A stretch of DNA of 64,000 nt from Streptococcus sp. S784/96/1 (GTDB taxonomy: Bacteria > Bacillota > Bacilli > Lactobacillales > Streptococcaceae), in assembly GCF_902729355.1 (NCBI RefSeq), contig NZ_CACVCC010000007.1, positions 1 to 64,000 of the forward strand, written 5' to 3'. Under the pieces are notes generated by a model. The model ran no database searches and was not told the origin of the DNA. It worked only from the letters and a program-made list of their open reading frames with translations. Positions 23,226 through 61,755 of the stretch are shown in pieces. Each line of letters begins with the position of its first letter. Within the stretch, counting starts at the first letter, position 1. The translations under genes and the position numbers were made by a program.

Positions 23226-23500
23226 AGAGGTTGGGATAAAATATCTCAACCTTCTTTTTTTGATATGCGACGTCTAGCGCCTAAAAAGAGTACGACTTAA
23301 CAAGACACCTCTACTTTAACATAATGAAAAAGTAGTGAGGACTTTCTCCCGTCGGAGATTTCCTCACTACTAATCTTAGTATGTTTGATAGCAATAACAG
23401 ATTAACGCAGTGTTGATAGGCGGTCTGTAGGTTGACACTTCTCTCCCTTTCAAGTGTCCACCTAAAATAGTCCACTGGACTATTTTAGTACCACACAATC
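23226..23500 (-). repeat. Intergenic repeat family, copy A
   Basis: On the minus strand it runs GTCCAGTGGACTATTTTAGG, then TGGACACTTGAAAG, ATCAACACTGCGTTAATCTG, and ends AGAAGGTTGAGATATTTTAT before CCCAACCTC. The same order of blocks is seen at 44708-44873 on the plus strand. Copy A has an extra internal segment with the 23331-23371 hairpin. Confidence 0.75.
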
Positions 23501-23599
23501 GTTAGCAGCCATCCTATACGAATGTGATGAATGTCGTTCATCTTATTTATTTCCAACCTCCAAAGGTCTCCCAGACCTTTAGAGCTGTGCGGATGTGGG

Positions 23600-23703
23600 A
23601 GTGAAACTGTCCAGTGGACAGTTTCAGCCTGAGCTTAGAGACCAGAGAGCGAGGGAAAGTCAAGACTTCGACATCATGACTTCTGTCCCACTCTCAGTGA
23701 AAG
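23600..23703. repeat. Intergenic repeat family, copy C1
   Basis: Contains ACTGTCCAGTGGACAGTTTC, then AGCCTGAGCTTAGAGA, CAGAGAGCGAGG, and ends CCCACTCTC. The same block order occurs at 34008-34130. The GTCCAGTGGAC palindrome and the GAGAGTGGG end link it to copies A and B. Confidence 0.7.
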
Positions 23704-26616: not shown

Positions 26617-26770
26617 GTGATTTCTCCTTTCTTCTGTGACACTATCCTTTTGGATAAAATAATCTTAACTACTAGTTAGTTTAAATCAAAAAAACAGATA
26701 TAGCTATCTCGTTCGAGTATTCTTTATCTGTTTTCTATCTATATTCCATTATTAAGAATTAGACAAAATA

Positions 26771-26818
26771 AAATGGTTTAGAATCAACGTTTTTTGACGA
26801 CGTTACTCTAAACCATTT
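26771..26818. terminator. Terminator after adhP
   Basis: Perfect 12-bp outer stem AAATGGTTTAGA/TCTAAACCATTT with an inner AACGT/ACGTT stem. T-rich flanks on both sides make it potentially bidirectional. It ends adhP transcription ahead of the surface protein promoter region. Confidence 0.75.
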
Positions 26819-26863
26819 ACTATTTTTTAGACTTTTTGCCCAAATTCTAGTTAGATTAATCTA

Positions 26864-33776: not shown

Positions 33777-34147
33777 AGAAAAAAACCTTCTTTCGCTGTT
33801 TAATAGCTAAATTATAGTTTATTATCCTATTAGCCACCTACCTAAAATCTGTTTTTCGTCTACTTTTTTTAGTAAAACGTACTAAGCAAGGAATGACTAA
33901 AGAAAAAGCGGCTTGGAAAAAAGCCTTCTGCCCTCTTGAATTATAAACTAAAGACAATATCATGCAGTGGTTAATTGAAGGCCTTGGAAATGGTCTCTTC
34001 TTCATTTTCAAGTGTTCGACCGAATCGTCTACTGGACAATTTCAGCCTGAGCATAAAAAAACAGAGAGCGAGGACAATCGACATCGTCATTTTTTGACGA
34101 TTTAACGAATGTTGCCCCACTCTCTTACGTTTGAGACTGATATTTCT
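33777..34147. other. V-ATPase end to M-like gene spacer
   Basis: 371 bp without a gene. Contains the M-like gene promoter (-10 at 33811-33816), AT-rich sequence with possible activator sites, and a copy of the intergenic repeat (34008-34130) that contains the hairpin ATCGTCA/TGACGAT (34083-34101), which may end ntpD transcription. Confidence 0.6.
34008..34130. repeat. Intergenic repeat family, copy C2
   Basis: Contains CTGGACAATTTCAGCCTGAG, CAGAGAGCGAGGA, and ends with CCCCACTCTC, in the same order as 23600-23703. Confidence 0.7.
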
Positions 34148-56258: not shown

Positions 56259-56317
56259 ACAAGCTAAGACATCAATCTTAACTTGTTCTGTATTTCTATA
56301 AAGAGACTCCGTCTCTT
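56259..56317 (-). terminator. Double terminator after ruvB
   Basis: Two hairpins: AAGAGAC/GTCTCTT (56301-56317), overlapping the ruvB stop, and ACAAGCTAAGA with its partner TCTTAACTTGT (56259-56286), followed by TTTTGC on the minus strand. Confidence 0.7.
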
Positions 56318-57314
56318 ATTTTTCCTGATAAGGATATCCCAAATGTTCATAGGCTTTAGCTGTGGCAACCCGTCCGGTCCGTGTCCGCATGATAAATCCT
56401 TTTTGAATGAGATAAGGCTCATACATATCTTCTACCGTATCTCTTTCTTCAGCGATATTGACAGAAAGAGTTCCTAGACCAACAGGACCTCCGCCGTATG
56501 TTTCAATCATGGTACGCAAAATTTTCTGGTCAACGTAATCCAAACCTTCATGGTCAACATCTAACATATTGAGAGCCTTATCGGTCATTTGGTCATCAAT
56601 TAAACCATCACCCATAATTTGAGCAAAGTCACGCACGCGTTTCAACAGACGATTAGCTATACGAGGCGTCCCTCGGCTACGTCTAGCCAACTCGATTGCG
56701 GCCTCATGTGTAATTTCCGCCTCAAAAATATCGGCCGTACGTTCTACTATTTCCGCCAAATCATCGAGCTCATAATACTCCATGTGACCACTAATCCCAA
56801 AGCGAGCACGCAAAGGGTTGGAAAGCATCCCTGCCCGAGTCGTCGCCCCAATTAGCGTGAACGGTGGCAAATCAAGGTGAACACTTCGGCTAGTCTCGCC
56901 AGAACCAATCATGATATCAATGTAAAAATCTTCCATAGCACTGTAAAGAACTTCTTCAACAGCCATCGGCATCCGGTGGATTTCATCGATAAAAAGGACA
57001 TCCCCAGGCTCAAGATCATTCAAAATCGCCACCAAATCCCCGGCTTTTTCAATAATAGGACCCGAAGTTTGCTTGAGATTAACGCCAAGTTCATTGGCAA
57101 TCACAAAAGCCATCGTCGTCTTACCAAGGCCAGGAGGCCCAAAAAGAAGAACATGGTCCAAGGCCTCGTCACGCAATTTAGCAGCCTCTATAAAGATCGA
57201 AAGCTGGTCTTTAACCTTATCTTGACCGATATATTCCCTAAAATATTGCGGGCGAAGCGTGCGCTCAACAGCCGCTTCATCTCCCATTGTTTCTGCATCT
57301 AAAAATCTTGTCAT
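56316..57314 (-). CDS. ruvB: Holliday junction branch migration helicase RuvB
   Basis: 332 residues, AAA+ motor. Walker [10 protein letters not shown], Walker B FIDEIHRM, sensor 1 [10 protein letters not shown] and a C-terminal winged helix ([20 protein letters not shown]). It drives branch migration with RuvA in recombination repair. The start at 57314 matches family length. There is no ribosome binding site, and a -10 box ends 6 nt upstream, so translation probably begins on a leaderless mRNA. It lies downstream of the comRS locus, the usual streptococcal position. Confidence 0.96.
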
Positions 57315-57571: not shown

Positions 57572-57802
57572 TTACCCAATCGTCTTAATGCTAAAATGTC
57601 TACGCATACGTTTCTTGTCAAGCTGTCCCAAACGATAGTCAACACTTCTATCCCAAACCGTTACATCACGTAAAGAAGAATTTCCTTTCACACATCTCGT
57701 TTCACGAGATTTTAACAGAATCACCTCTTCAGTGAGCGTATCAGGTGATGAAATCCAAATCAACTGTGGAATAAAGGTTTTGTTGGTAATCATAAGTTGC
57801 AT
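57572..57802 (-). CDS. 76-residue protein downstream of comS, unknown function
   Basis: I do not recognise it. It has a strong AAGGAGA site 6 nt before the ATG, unlike random frames nearby. The protein starts MQLMITNKTFIPQLIWISSP and has a single Cys near residue 36. The rest is charged (SRETRCVKGNSS, DRSVDYRLGQLDKKRMRRHF) and basic at the C-terminus, with no signal peptide or membrane helix. It begins 55 nt after the comS stop with no terminator between, so it is probably co-transcribed with comS from the ComR-dependent promoter and would be a competence-phase protein. Confidence 0.6.
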   Translation of the reverse strand: MQLMITNKTFIPQLIWISSPDTLTEEVILLKSRETRCVKGNSSLRDVTVWDRSVDYRLGQLDKKRMRRHFSIKTIG

Positions 57803-57857
57803 GTTTATTCTCCTTGTGAAATATTGATAATATTATTTCCTATCCTTCATTTGTTAA

Positions 57858-57959
57858 TTAGCAGCCTAATAACCACCAATCAATCTCTCCCATTTTTTGA
57901 CTTACTATTGCAAGTAGCGGTAAAATTACCAATAAGTAATATTTCAAACGTAAATTCAT
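57858..57959 (-). CDS. comS: ComS, precursor of the XIP competence pheromone
   Basis: A 33-codon gene found by looking for a WW motif beside comR. The ATG at 57959 has GGAG 7 nt upstream. The peptide has a basic N-terminus (MNLRLKYY), a hydrophobic core (LLVILPLLAIV) and the C-terminal part EIDWWLLGC. The double tryptophan after Asp is the hallmark of pyogenic and mutans-group XIP, and length and layout fit ComS. It would be exported, processed to about 8-9 C-terminal residues, reimported by the oligopeptide permease and bound by ComR. It lies between comR and ruvB, behind a ComR box. The C-terminal extension LLGC after WW differs from the short ends in S. pyogenes and S. mutans. Confidence 0.92.
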   Translation of the reverse strand: MNLRLKYYLLVILPLLAIVSQKMGEIDWWLLGC

Positions 57960-57994
57960 TTTCTGTCTCCAGTCATTTATTATTTACATAAGTT

Positions 57995-58000
57995 ATTATA
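57995..58000 (-). promoter_or_regulatory. -10 box of comS promoter
   Basis: TATAAT on the minus strand, 19 nt downstream of the ComR box and 35 nt ahead of comS. The gap holds the T-run TTATTTTTTTAG seen in ComR-type promoters, and no good -35 exists, consistent with activator dependence. Confidence 0.8.
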
Positions 58001-58019: not shown

Positions 58020-58041
58020 AACATGACATAAATGTCATGCT
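58020..58041 (-). promoter_or_regulatory. ComR box (P1 type)
   Basis: The central 16 bp ATGACATTTATGTCAT form a perfect palindrome. Including flanks, the 22-bp site matches the ComR-box pattern AACAnGACAnnnnTGTCnTGTT with one mismatch (the second base). It is directly upstream of comS and downstream of comR. Confidence 0.9.
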
Positions 58042-58158
58042 GGCACTTCTTTAAGTGATGTTTGACATCAGCGATTTCTTACGAAATTCTATGACCAATC
58101 TTTGAAGCTTCTAAGGTCTACATTCTCGAGTTTGAACAAAAACTCCCAAATACAGTTC

Positions 58159-58204
58159 AAAAGGCATAAAAATCGTTATCAAAAACGATAATTCTATGCC
58201 TTTT
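58159..58204 (-). terminator. Terminator after comR
   Basis: Outer stem AAAAGGCATA/TATGCCTTTT with inner ATCGTT/AACGAT stem, between comR and the ComR box; it isolates comR transcription from comS. Confidence 0.8.
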
Positions 58205-58269
58205 TAGAGTATTCATTTTTCAAAATAAGAACTGAAATGTGATTTTTTATCTAGCCTAATTATAACTAA

Positions 58270-59181
58270 TTAATTGTCTTGCATATCCTTTTTCCACTCC
58301 TCTTCTATCTGTTTTTTTAAATAGCTATCCTGTATCATTTCAGAAAACATTATGGCTTGTTGATAATACTGGCAAGCTTCTTGTTTTTCACCCAAACATT
58401 GTAATATATATTTCCATTTATAAAGATAATAAATTGGCATTCGCTGAAAGTCTTGAATTTTTAACATCAGCTGATAGCAAATTTCCAAAATAAAGTCAAT
58501 TTCTTCAATTCGATCTAAACTGATTAAGGTAAAGCAGAGTATTATATAAACTTTATTGAGATAGAAAAAATCGTCAATAGGCAACAAATCTTTCTGATCT
58601 AATAATTTTTCTATAAACGTATTAAAAACAGAAACATCAAATACTTCTTCATCAAAATTTGAAGCAATCGAACACATAAAATACAAATCAATTAAGGCTA
58701 AATCATTGATATTATAGACTTTCTTTTTCTTAGCTTGTTCAAAATAATCCTGTAAAATATCTGTTCCAAAATCTATATTACCACTATTAAAAACTTCAAA
58801 TCGAGACTGAATAATATCAATTGTAACCTGTTCTGCTTCAGGCAATTCATCATAATATTCCTCAAAAATCTCATCAAACTGCTCTTCACGAATTTTTAAG
58901 CGTTCTTCATCTAGATAAGTGGGAGTTCTTAGTATCAGATACTTTAACTCTTTATATCTCTTAGGCAATTCTAAATTCTCTCCATCTGTGAGGCTTCCTA
59001 CGGTTACTCCCAATTGTTGAGCAATGTATTCTACTTTTGCTAGCGTTGGAATAGATTGCCCACTTTCAATACGCGCTAATTGTCTAATAGACAACTCTGT
59101 TTCATCACCACAAAACTCTTCCCGAGTAATATGCAAACCTTCACGTAAATCTCTTACTTTTTGACCAAAACCGCTTAACAT
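58270..59181 (-). CDS. comR: Competence regulator ComR (Rgg/RRNPP family)
   Basis: 303 residues. N-terminal XRE helix-turn-helix (about 5-65, ELSIRQLARIESGQSIPTL) and a C-terminal TPR-type helical domain binding the XIP peptide. The HTH sequence, length and place between purB and ruvB match ComR rather than other Rgg proteins. With XIP it activates comS and sigX. GGAG ribosome site 8 nt before the ATG; -10 TATAAT at 59202-59207. Downstream it is separated from comS by a terminator and a ComR box. Confidence 0.93.
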   Translation of the reverse strand: MLSGFGQKVRDLREGLHITREEFCGDETELSIRQLARIESGQSIPTLAKVEYIAQQLGVTVGSLTDGENLELPKRYKELKYLILRTPTYLDEERLKIREEQFDEIFEEYYDELPEAEQVTIDIIQSRFEVFNSGNIDFGTDILQDYFEQAKKKKVYNINDLALIDLYFMCSIASNFDEEVFDVSVFNTFIEKLLDQKDLLPIDDFFYLNKVYIILCFTLISLDRIEEIDFILEICYQLMLKIQDFQRMPIYYLYKWKYILQCLGEKQEACQYYQQAIMFSEMIQDSYLKKQIEEEWKKDMQDN

Positions 59182-60663: not shown

Positions 60664-61344
60664 TTAACTCCTTTGTTCGATCTTTATAATAATTTTTTTT
60701 GTCTTTTTCAATACATCTTCGCTATCAATATAATTAGTTAAACTATTTTTCTCTGAGAAATGCACTAGATTATTACGTAAATCAAAAAATGTATTTAATA
60801 CATTGTAATCGTCGTCATTAATAATATCTTTTGCTCTGATTTCACGAAGCGAGGCACTAAGATTTCTTCTTTTATTTTCTTCAGGAAAGTATTTTTTTAC
60901 GGCTTTCTCAAGCCTCTTATAATATTCAAGTATAATTTCTACTTGATTACGTTCTTTAATAGATTGTTGCCTGTTCTTTTTAAGCTGCTGGAGCAACTGT
61001 AGGAGCATCACAATGAATACTAGGTATAACCCAAAAACTATCATTAGTACAGCCAATGTATTAATTGAACTATATTGATAATATTTAAACTCTCTTATAT
61101 ATATATACGCCAAAATAATTACACCTAACAGTACATACATCATAGCTACCATTTGAAAAATTTTATATTTTTCAGTCTTATTTGCTTGTCTCAGTACTTT
61201 TTTTGCCCTATCATCGATACTTAATAAATCATTTTCTGAGATATTCTCAATTGATTTTGATCTATCTAGTATAGTCTTATATAGTAACTCTTTGTATTCT
61301 TCAGATAAGCTATCCAAATAAAATTCTAATTTTTTTTGTTCCAT
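60664..61344 (-). CDS. Membrane protein with C-terminal HEPN-like motif, unknown function
   Basis: 226 residues. A charged N-terminal helical region (1-60) precedes two membrane helices (about 63-83 and 94-118), a coiled segment (115-150) and a C-terminal helical domain ending in [15 protein letters not shown]. The RNNLVH at 190-195 fits the Rx4-6H motif with polar residue of HEPN ribonucleases, often found in toxin-antitoxin and abortive-infection systems. It sits 15 nt after another two-helix membrane gene and 2 nt before purB, inside the purine operon. Function not known; a membrane-tethered RNase or sensor is a hypothesis. Confidence 0.7.
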
Positions 61345-61359
61345 TTGATAACCTCACCA

Positions 61360-61755
61360 CTATTTCACAGCTGTATAATAAAATTGTATCAACAAAGCTG
61401 ACATTAGAAGAGCTACCGATATAATAAACCAAATATACTTAAGTAAATCAGTATCAGGATTAGAGCCCCATAATGAACCCACAGATATTGAAGTTATAGC
61501 AATAACTATAGTTGTTATTCCCAAAATTATTTTATCTCTTTTCGATGGGAAATATTCTTTATTTAGCTTTGTACGAGCTTTAATAACATGACTACCGATT
61601 ACTTCCTTCTGTCCATCCGAAGTTCTTTCGCTCTTTTCAATTCTATCTACCTCTTTAATTAAAAACTCACAATATTCCTTAGTTGCCTCAGATACTCTAT
61701 CTTGTGCCTCTACTGAGTAACCGGAAAAATTACTGTCATCAACATTTACTTGCAT
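61360..61755 (-). CDS. Small two-helix membrane protein paired with the HEPN-like gene
   Basis: 131 residues: soluble helical N-terminus (1-72, including SEATKEYCEFLIKEVDRIEK and a KARTKLNKEYFPSKRDK segment) and two membrane helices (about 75-96 and 106-127) separated by a short acidic outer loop. No recognised family. It begins 21 nt after purK and ends 15 nt before the HEPN-like gene, so the two are probably a functional pair, such as sensor and effector. Codon use looks like the AT-rich end of the window, poorer in GC than the flanking pur genes, which suggests acquisition. Confidence 0.7.
   Translation of the reverse strand: MQVNVDDSNFSGYSVEAQDRVSEATKEYCEFLIKEVDRIEKSERTSDGQKEVIGSHVIKARTKLNKEYFPSKRDKIILGITTIVIAITSISVGSLWGSNPDTDLLKYIWFIISVALLMSALLIQFYYTAVK

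Follow-up and report, generated by a model that had tools for sequence, protein, structure and literature searches.

Does the 33-codon frame lying behind comR in Streptococcus sp. S784/96/1 encode the pheromone of a ComRS switch and, if so, what is the significance of a peptide that runs on for four residues after its paired tryptophans and ends in a cysteine? The frame occupies positions 57858-57959 on the minus strand of the window, i.e. the whole stretch of 64,000 nucleotides that was analysed, and specifies 33 amino acids (MNLRLKYYLLVILPLLAIVSQKMGEIDWWLLGC). It exists exactly as the initial annotation had described it, complete with a ribosome-binding site, GGAG (57967-57970, minus strand), 7 nt 5' of its ATG. 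The C-terminus, EIDWWLLGC, carries adjacent tryptophans near the end, which is a type-II ComS trait; the type-III (suis) trait, with tryptophans split by two residues, is not found in this ComS. Scored against NF038244, the NCBIfam model named 'quorum-sensing system DWW-type pheromone', the protein reaches 33 bits and passes the cut-off of 29. With this score, a neighbour bearing the ComR_TPR domain and a ComR box, the earlier reading of the frame as comS with a WW-motif pheromone holds: the gene is a true comS belonging to a type-II (WW) ComRS locus, and of a known kind. The further suggestion of a 'new pheromone type' is not supported, because the protein passes the curated model of the family. 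The putative mature XIP would consist of the last eight residues, IDWWLLGC (57861-57884, minus strand), if its length follows that of other XIPs.

How readily could such a frame arise by chance? Matches to NF038244 exceed the cut-off in 15 of the 197 genomes of the genus, S784/96/1 included, and in none of 14 control genomes. Since weaker matches are common (below the cut-off in six of the 14 controls, and with E values up to 1 in 157 of 197 genus genomes), the model is informative only above its threshold, and at all 15 loci above it a comR match is accompanied by a downstream WW frame. The model is also narrow, as a number of relatives that possess both comR and a WW frame score below it (e.g. 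L017-L019, L021 and L030). Among the 589 ATG frames of 12-60 amino acids in the 64-kb window, two have WW within the last seven residues, and comS alone combines a late WW with a motif resembling a ribosome-binding site. An alternative reading of LLGC as a lipobox, and hence of the product as a lipoprotein, was rejected because the hydrophobic core (residues 9-19) lies far from the cysteine and no residue follows it. The strings DWWLLGC, WWLLGC, NWWEGL, NWWEYL and DRWWGC were not found in the open-licence papers searched.

The gene upstream on the same strand, comR (58270-59181, minus strand; 303 amino acids), encodes the presumptive receptor. It scores 237.4 bits against PF18710 (ComR_TPR; cut-off 26.5), its DNA-binding part passes HTH_3 (23.2 bits, cut-off 23) and stays below the cut-off of HTH_19 (29.5 bits, cut-off 30.2), and ComR chains are among its nearest relatives of solved structure in the PDB. 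Eighteen positions described as functional in S. thermophilus ComR in parts of two papers (PMC8605241, PMC5131891) were looked up, and seven are identical in S784/96/1 (R35, R39, T90, Y91, E117, D147 and D200). Three others, K100, K87 and R51, are exchanged for the other basic residue; K100, described in the parts of these sources drawn upon as holding the peptide carboxylate, becomes arginine. All remaining positions differ: R92 and F171, given there as important, are replaced (L90 and M169 here), and E118, E146 and N208 are among those likewise not kept in the alignment. R92, E118, F171 and N208 differ in the ComR of Streptococcus hillyeri too.

Read along the minus strand, the locus runs from purB through comR, a hairpin, the ComR box, TATAAT, comS and a second small gene termed orf76 to ruvB (56316-57314, minus strand). 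In relatives, too, comR has a WW frame downstream, and ruvB lies behind it. The initial annotation had set comS between comR and ruvB; comR is indeed its upstream neighbour, but orf76 intervenes on the other side. The hairpin (58159-58204, minus strand), between comR and the ComR box, is possibly the terminator of comR, and the surrounding 66 nt have a folding energy of -21.8 kcal/mol (z -6.9). The ComR box (58022-58039, minus strand) is an inverted repeat, CATGACATTTATGTCATG, with a T-rich tract behind it, in an arrangement similar to that in relatives and in front of S. hillyeri sigX, and the -10 element TATAAT lies at 57995-58000 (minus strand). Only one place in the 2.45-Mb assembly has a ComR-box core with TATAAT 15-32 nt behind it, against zero for the reversed control pattern, and the core in front of comS is the one common to type-I and type-II forms. 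When two mismatches are allowed, the ComR-box pattern by itself is only slightly commoner than its control in this genome (46 versus 37). Of the look-alikes elsewhere, three were read and discarded: one inside a helicase-like gene (L052, contig C42), one inside a repeat gene (L063), and one 5' of a peptide-binding-lipoprotein-like gene but lacking the order of the comS promoter (L062, contig C45). The last of these (L062, 279-333) has one mismatch, sits just 5' of its gene and is perhaps there by chance; the helicase-like gene (L052, 1039-2926) lies in two frames beside a transposase-like gene and is either broken or affected by a sequencing fault. A search for RNA families at the comS locus returned five matches with E values up to 1, each far below its gathering score. 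As a separate observation, S. hillyeri lacks most of the stretch of approximately 200 bases, strong hairpin included, that separates comR from the ComR box (58043-58270).

S. hillyeri is the nearest species found, with a ruvB identical at 94.4% of DNA and 99.7% of protein positions, and it is the comparison with this species that sets signal and receptor apart from their surroundings. Over a shared contig of 54 kb, 22 other genes show 85.2-99.8% protein identity (frames taken as genes, with a match covering 70% or more of their length, after five antisense or wrong-frame rows of 58.5, 70.9, 75.2, 79.4 and 89.4% had been dropped), orf76 stands at 94.7%, and the background DNA identity in four long matched stretches is 85-89%. 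In steps of 120 bases, DNA identity is 87-95% at the start of comR and 80-83% in the next two steps, falls to about 60% over 58680-58321 and to 61-66% across comS with its promoter, and returns to 88-98% over orf76 and ruvB up to the last step of ruvB. The receptor follows the same course, being 97.0% identical in residues 1-66, 84.8% in residues 72-150 and 46.7% in residues 151-303, the variable part encoded by 58273-58731 (minus strand). The frame and its WW are kept in relatives, as the initial annotation had proposed to check, but the aspartate before WW is not kept in S. hillyeri, whose peptide ends in SNWWEGL, unlike the DWWLLGC of S784/96/1. Two further observations come from this comparison: two frames on the minus strand between purB and purK (60664-61755) do not align with S. 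hillyeri there and have only weak family hits, and three stretches of the window (approximately 23380-23660, 26750-26850 and 33930-34130) match many separate places in S. hillyeri and are probably interspersed intergenic repeats.

Has this block been exchanged, or has it simply evolved fast? In trees of 18 of the 86 ComR rows, the DNA-binding part joins S784/96/1 with S. hillyeri (97/90), and a grouping of S. hillyeri with Streptococcus plurextorum is rejected (AU p 0.0296); the TPR part instead places S. hillyeri beside S. plurextorum (98/95), as does the TPR tree of all 86 rows (100/94), and here S784/96/1 with S. hillyeri is rejected (AU p 0.0305). These p values near 0.03 are modest, because the groups were chosen once the trees were known. 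Since the DNA-binding and TPR trees disagree, and with evidence of moderate weight, the pherotype block may have been exchanged, as has been published for S. suis. That comR and comS have simply evolved fast in both lineages, in the ordinary way and with no exchange at all, is a possibility that we take seriously, albeit as the less probable account: on the way from the HTH to the TPR part, identity to S. hillyeri declines gradually from about residue 120, without one sharp breakpoint, and S. hillyeri, S784/96/1 and S. plurextorum all fall within one TPR clade (100/99), yet identity is back at 88-98% directly behind comS, and the conflict between the trees also speaks against it. Our preferred reading, which is very probably correct, is that comS encodes the precursor in a type-II ComRS switch and that the segment that starts near codon 120 of comR and extends to the end of comS has either been exchanged with, or sharply diverged from, its counterpart in S. 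hillyeri. Because the block differs in one of these two ways, S784/96/1 and S. hillyeri are probably unresponsive to each other's signal. As raised at the outset, the S784/96/1 pheromone may plausibly have its own specificity, given that the peptide and the half of ComR that binds it have diverged in step.

Directly behind the block, orf76 (57572-57802, minus strand; 76 amino acids) begins 55 nt after comS, has AGGAG before its ATG (57810-57814, minus strand) and is possibly read together with comS. Homologues, codon-position bias and a predicted fold mark it as a conserved small gene. Relatives of it stand behind comS in S. hillyeri (95% identity), S. porci (75%), S. plurextorum (57-58%), S. 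henryi (37%) and the genome G020 (36-38%), so that the comS-orf76 pair is present in six species, S784/96/1 included, and a seventh, G190, has a remote relative between comS and ruvB. The stop of comS and the start of orf76 are 47-55 nt apart in five species and 13 nt apart in G020. Changes concentrate on the third codon position, with counts at the first, second and third positions of 3, 2 and 9 against S. hillyeri, and 16, 6 and 41 against S. porci. The predicted fold is small and mostly beta (pLDDT 83). No family was met at E 0.1 in Pfam, NCBIfam, PADLOC or PHROGs (one of five members has a weak Pfam hit, E 0.025), and the phage collection gave no match; by sequence, the best solved structure stands at E 0.45, and a fold search of the PDB gave 229 matches up to E 10, none of them at E 0.001 or better. 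Co-induction with comS is likely by analogy, because the S. mutans comS transcript is described, in the part of PMC5069739 drawn upon, as reading through into ruvB. The recurrence of the pair across species points to a small early-competence protein that has been overlooked. It is conceivable, though rather unlikely, that these features together make up a private pherotype, in which a Cys-ended XIP would be sensitive to oxidation outside the cell, the ligand half of ComR would have been acquired as a block, and orf76, sharing a transcript with comS that starts at the ComR box, would encode an unrecognised early-competence protein that modulates the switch, for instance for shut-off or self-protection.

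How unusual, then, is the tail? A ComR match at E 1e-30 is found in 201 of 284 genomes, and the survey of ComS endings took 100 rows downstream of a comR match (loci L001-L197, among them 60 stretches fetched for this purpose; identical downstream stretches were counted once). It thus concerns the ComRs most like that of S784/96/1, and the better part among the matches listed, rather than the whole genus. When WW or W-x(1-2)-W near the end of a frame behind a ComR box was sought, 81 rows yielded such a frame, 13 did not and six were too short; the 81 frames correspond to 76 distinct ComS. Four residues follow WW in S784/96/1 alone, three in 19, two in 49 and one in a single ComS, while the tryptophans are split in the remaining six; the earlier impression that LLGC is unlike known endings is thereby borne out. 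The terminal cysteine, also singled out as unusual, is rare but not unique, as one other of the 76, that of S. porci, ends in WWGC. ComS of S784/96/1 is matched in five of the 284 genomes, its own included, and the tail is absent from the other four matches. The last codons are GGC TGC TAA, nine of the 76 surveyed ComS use a TGA stop, from which TGC is one base away, and Cys-less endings of the form DWW-x-x-G are common in relatives (e.g. DWWLFG and DWWNLG); loss of a TGA stop may, for these reasons, have given rise to the cysteine. Parts of two papers bear on what the tail might do: the C-terminus of the peptide is described as buried in a deep hydrophobic pocket of ComR, S. thermophilus XIP, LPYFAGCL, likewise has a cysteine near its end (both PMC5131891), compatibility of the last residue appears to be critical, and every peptide that activates S. 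agalactiae ComR carries three residues behind WW (both PMC5131902). Because of the buried C-terminus, the critical terminal residue and the three-residue rule for S. agalactiae ComR, the four-residue tail ending in cysteine likely matters for specificity.

The same tail could be taken as a sign of decay, with the stop of comS lost, the cysteine gained and the switch out of tune with its receptor. To this would fit the four residues after WW, where the other 69 ComS with adjacent tryptophans have at most three, the last sense codon one base from the TGA that some relatives use, and the position of comS 313 nt behind comR, a distance exceeded at only two (L134 and L186) of 81 places. We nevertheless consider decay quite improbable: the comR frame, the ComR box, the T-rich tract, TATAAT and the ribosome-binding site are all intact, ComR has diverged together with the peptide, and the ComS of S. 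porci also ends in cysteine. The receptor could also be a ComR paralogue, like ScuR of S. salivarius, and drive bacteriocins rather than sigX; ComR paralogues do occur in the genus, because several relatives carry neighbouring comR-like pairs (G243:C11, G140:C1, G219:C7 and G069:C8, with a W-W comS behind at most one gene of each pair). That the S784/96/1 receptor should be such a paralogue is nonetheless highly improbable, given that its own genome holds a single match to it at E 0.001, that comR is flanked by purB and ruvB, just as it is in S. hillyeri, and that no bacteriocin gene was recognised among the neighbouring frames listed.

Under the preferred reading of a type-II switch, and by analogy with known systems, ComS would be exported and then trimmed to a short C-terminal peptide, probably of 7-9 residues ending in DWWLLGC, which would be re-imported by an oligopeptide permease and bind the TPR domain of ComR. 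ComR with bound peptide would dimerise and bind the ComR box upstream of comS, providing positive feedback, and would also bind a ComR box upstream of sigX, starting competence. Is sigX there to be started? A search with a sigX-like protein of another streptococcus (L073) matched three of three relatives and gave no match in the S784/96/1 genome at E 0.01, because the assembly holds only sigX 3' ends, of 46 and 48 codons, at the very start of two contigs (C1:2-142, L086; C34:2-148, L089). The initial annotation had seen in comS the completion of a ComRS switch; the two truncated sigX copies are present, but their 5' parts and promoters were not found in the assembly. The S. hillyeri sigX lies behind a 5S-rRNA-like stretch (by reading) and a tRNA-Asn and has a ComR box of its own, GACATTTGTGTCATGTT; its promoter region is 80% identical to the comS promoter of S784/96/1 over 46 nt. 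The ComRS switch of S784/96/1 is probably complete. Another candidate, the second PF04542 hit (L055), was set aside as an ECF-like sigma factor (by reading) without a ComR-box core at up to one mismatch in 3,153 bases. The sigX end on contig C34 is followed by transposase-like frames.

Among known systems, the type-II ComRS loci of the pyogenic, mutans and bovis groups, as described in part of PMC5131902, share with S784/96/1 a ComR, a small comS behind a ComR box and WW near the C-terminus, and the S. mutans peptide is given as MGLDWWSL in the part of PMC5131891 drawn upon. The S784/96/1 locus differs in the four residues after WW, the terminal cysteine, the 313-nt spacer with its hairpin that separates comR from comS, and orf76 behind comS, and its comS widens the range of type-II XIP tails. 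S. porci (L035/L115) shares the Gly-Cys end behind WW and the orf76 homologue behind comS, but has two residues after WW, arginine rather than aspartate before it, and a ComR whose TPR part falls in another clade. The type-III pherotypes of S. suis, as described in part of PMC4072589, have the same arrangement of an identical or nearly identical DNA-binding part of ComR and a C-terminal half varying with comS; those, however, distinguish strains of one species and use a split-tryptophan peptide, GNWGTWVEE, whereas here two sister species with adjacent WW are concerned. S. hillyeri (L032/L057) has the nearest flanks found (ruvB 99.7% at the protein level) and 97% identity in ComR residues 1-66, but a XIP ending in SNWWEGL and 47% identity in ComR residues 151-303, so that signal and receptor half stand out as different along the locus of this pair. 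The two sister species thus offer a natural experiment on pherotype change, and pherotypes of this sort may limit gene exchange between species.
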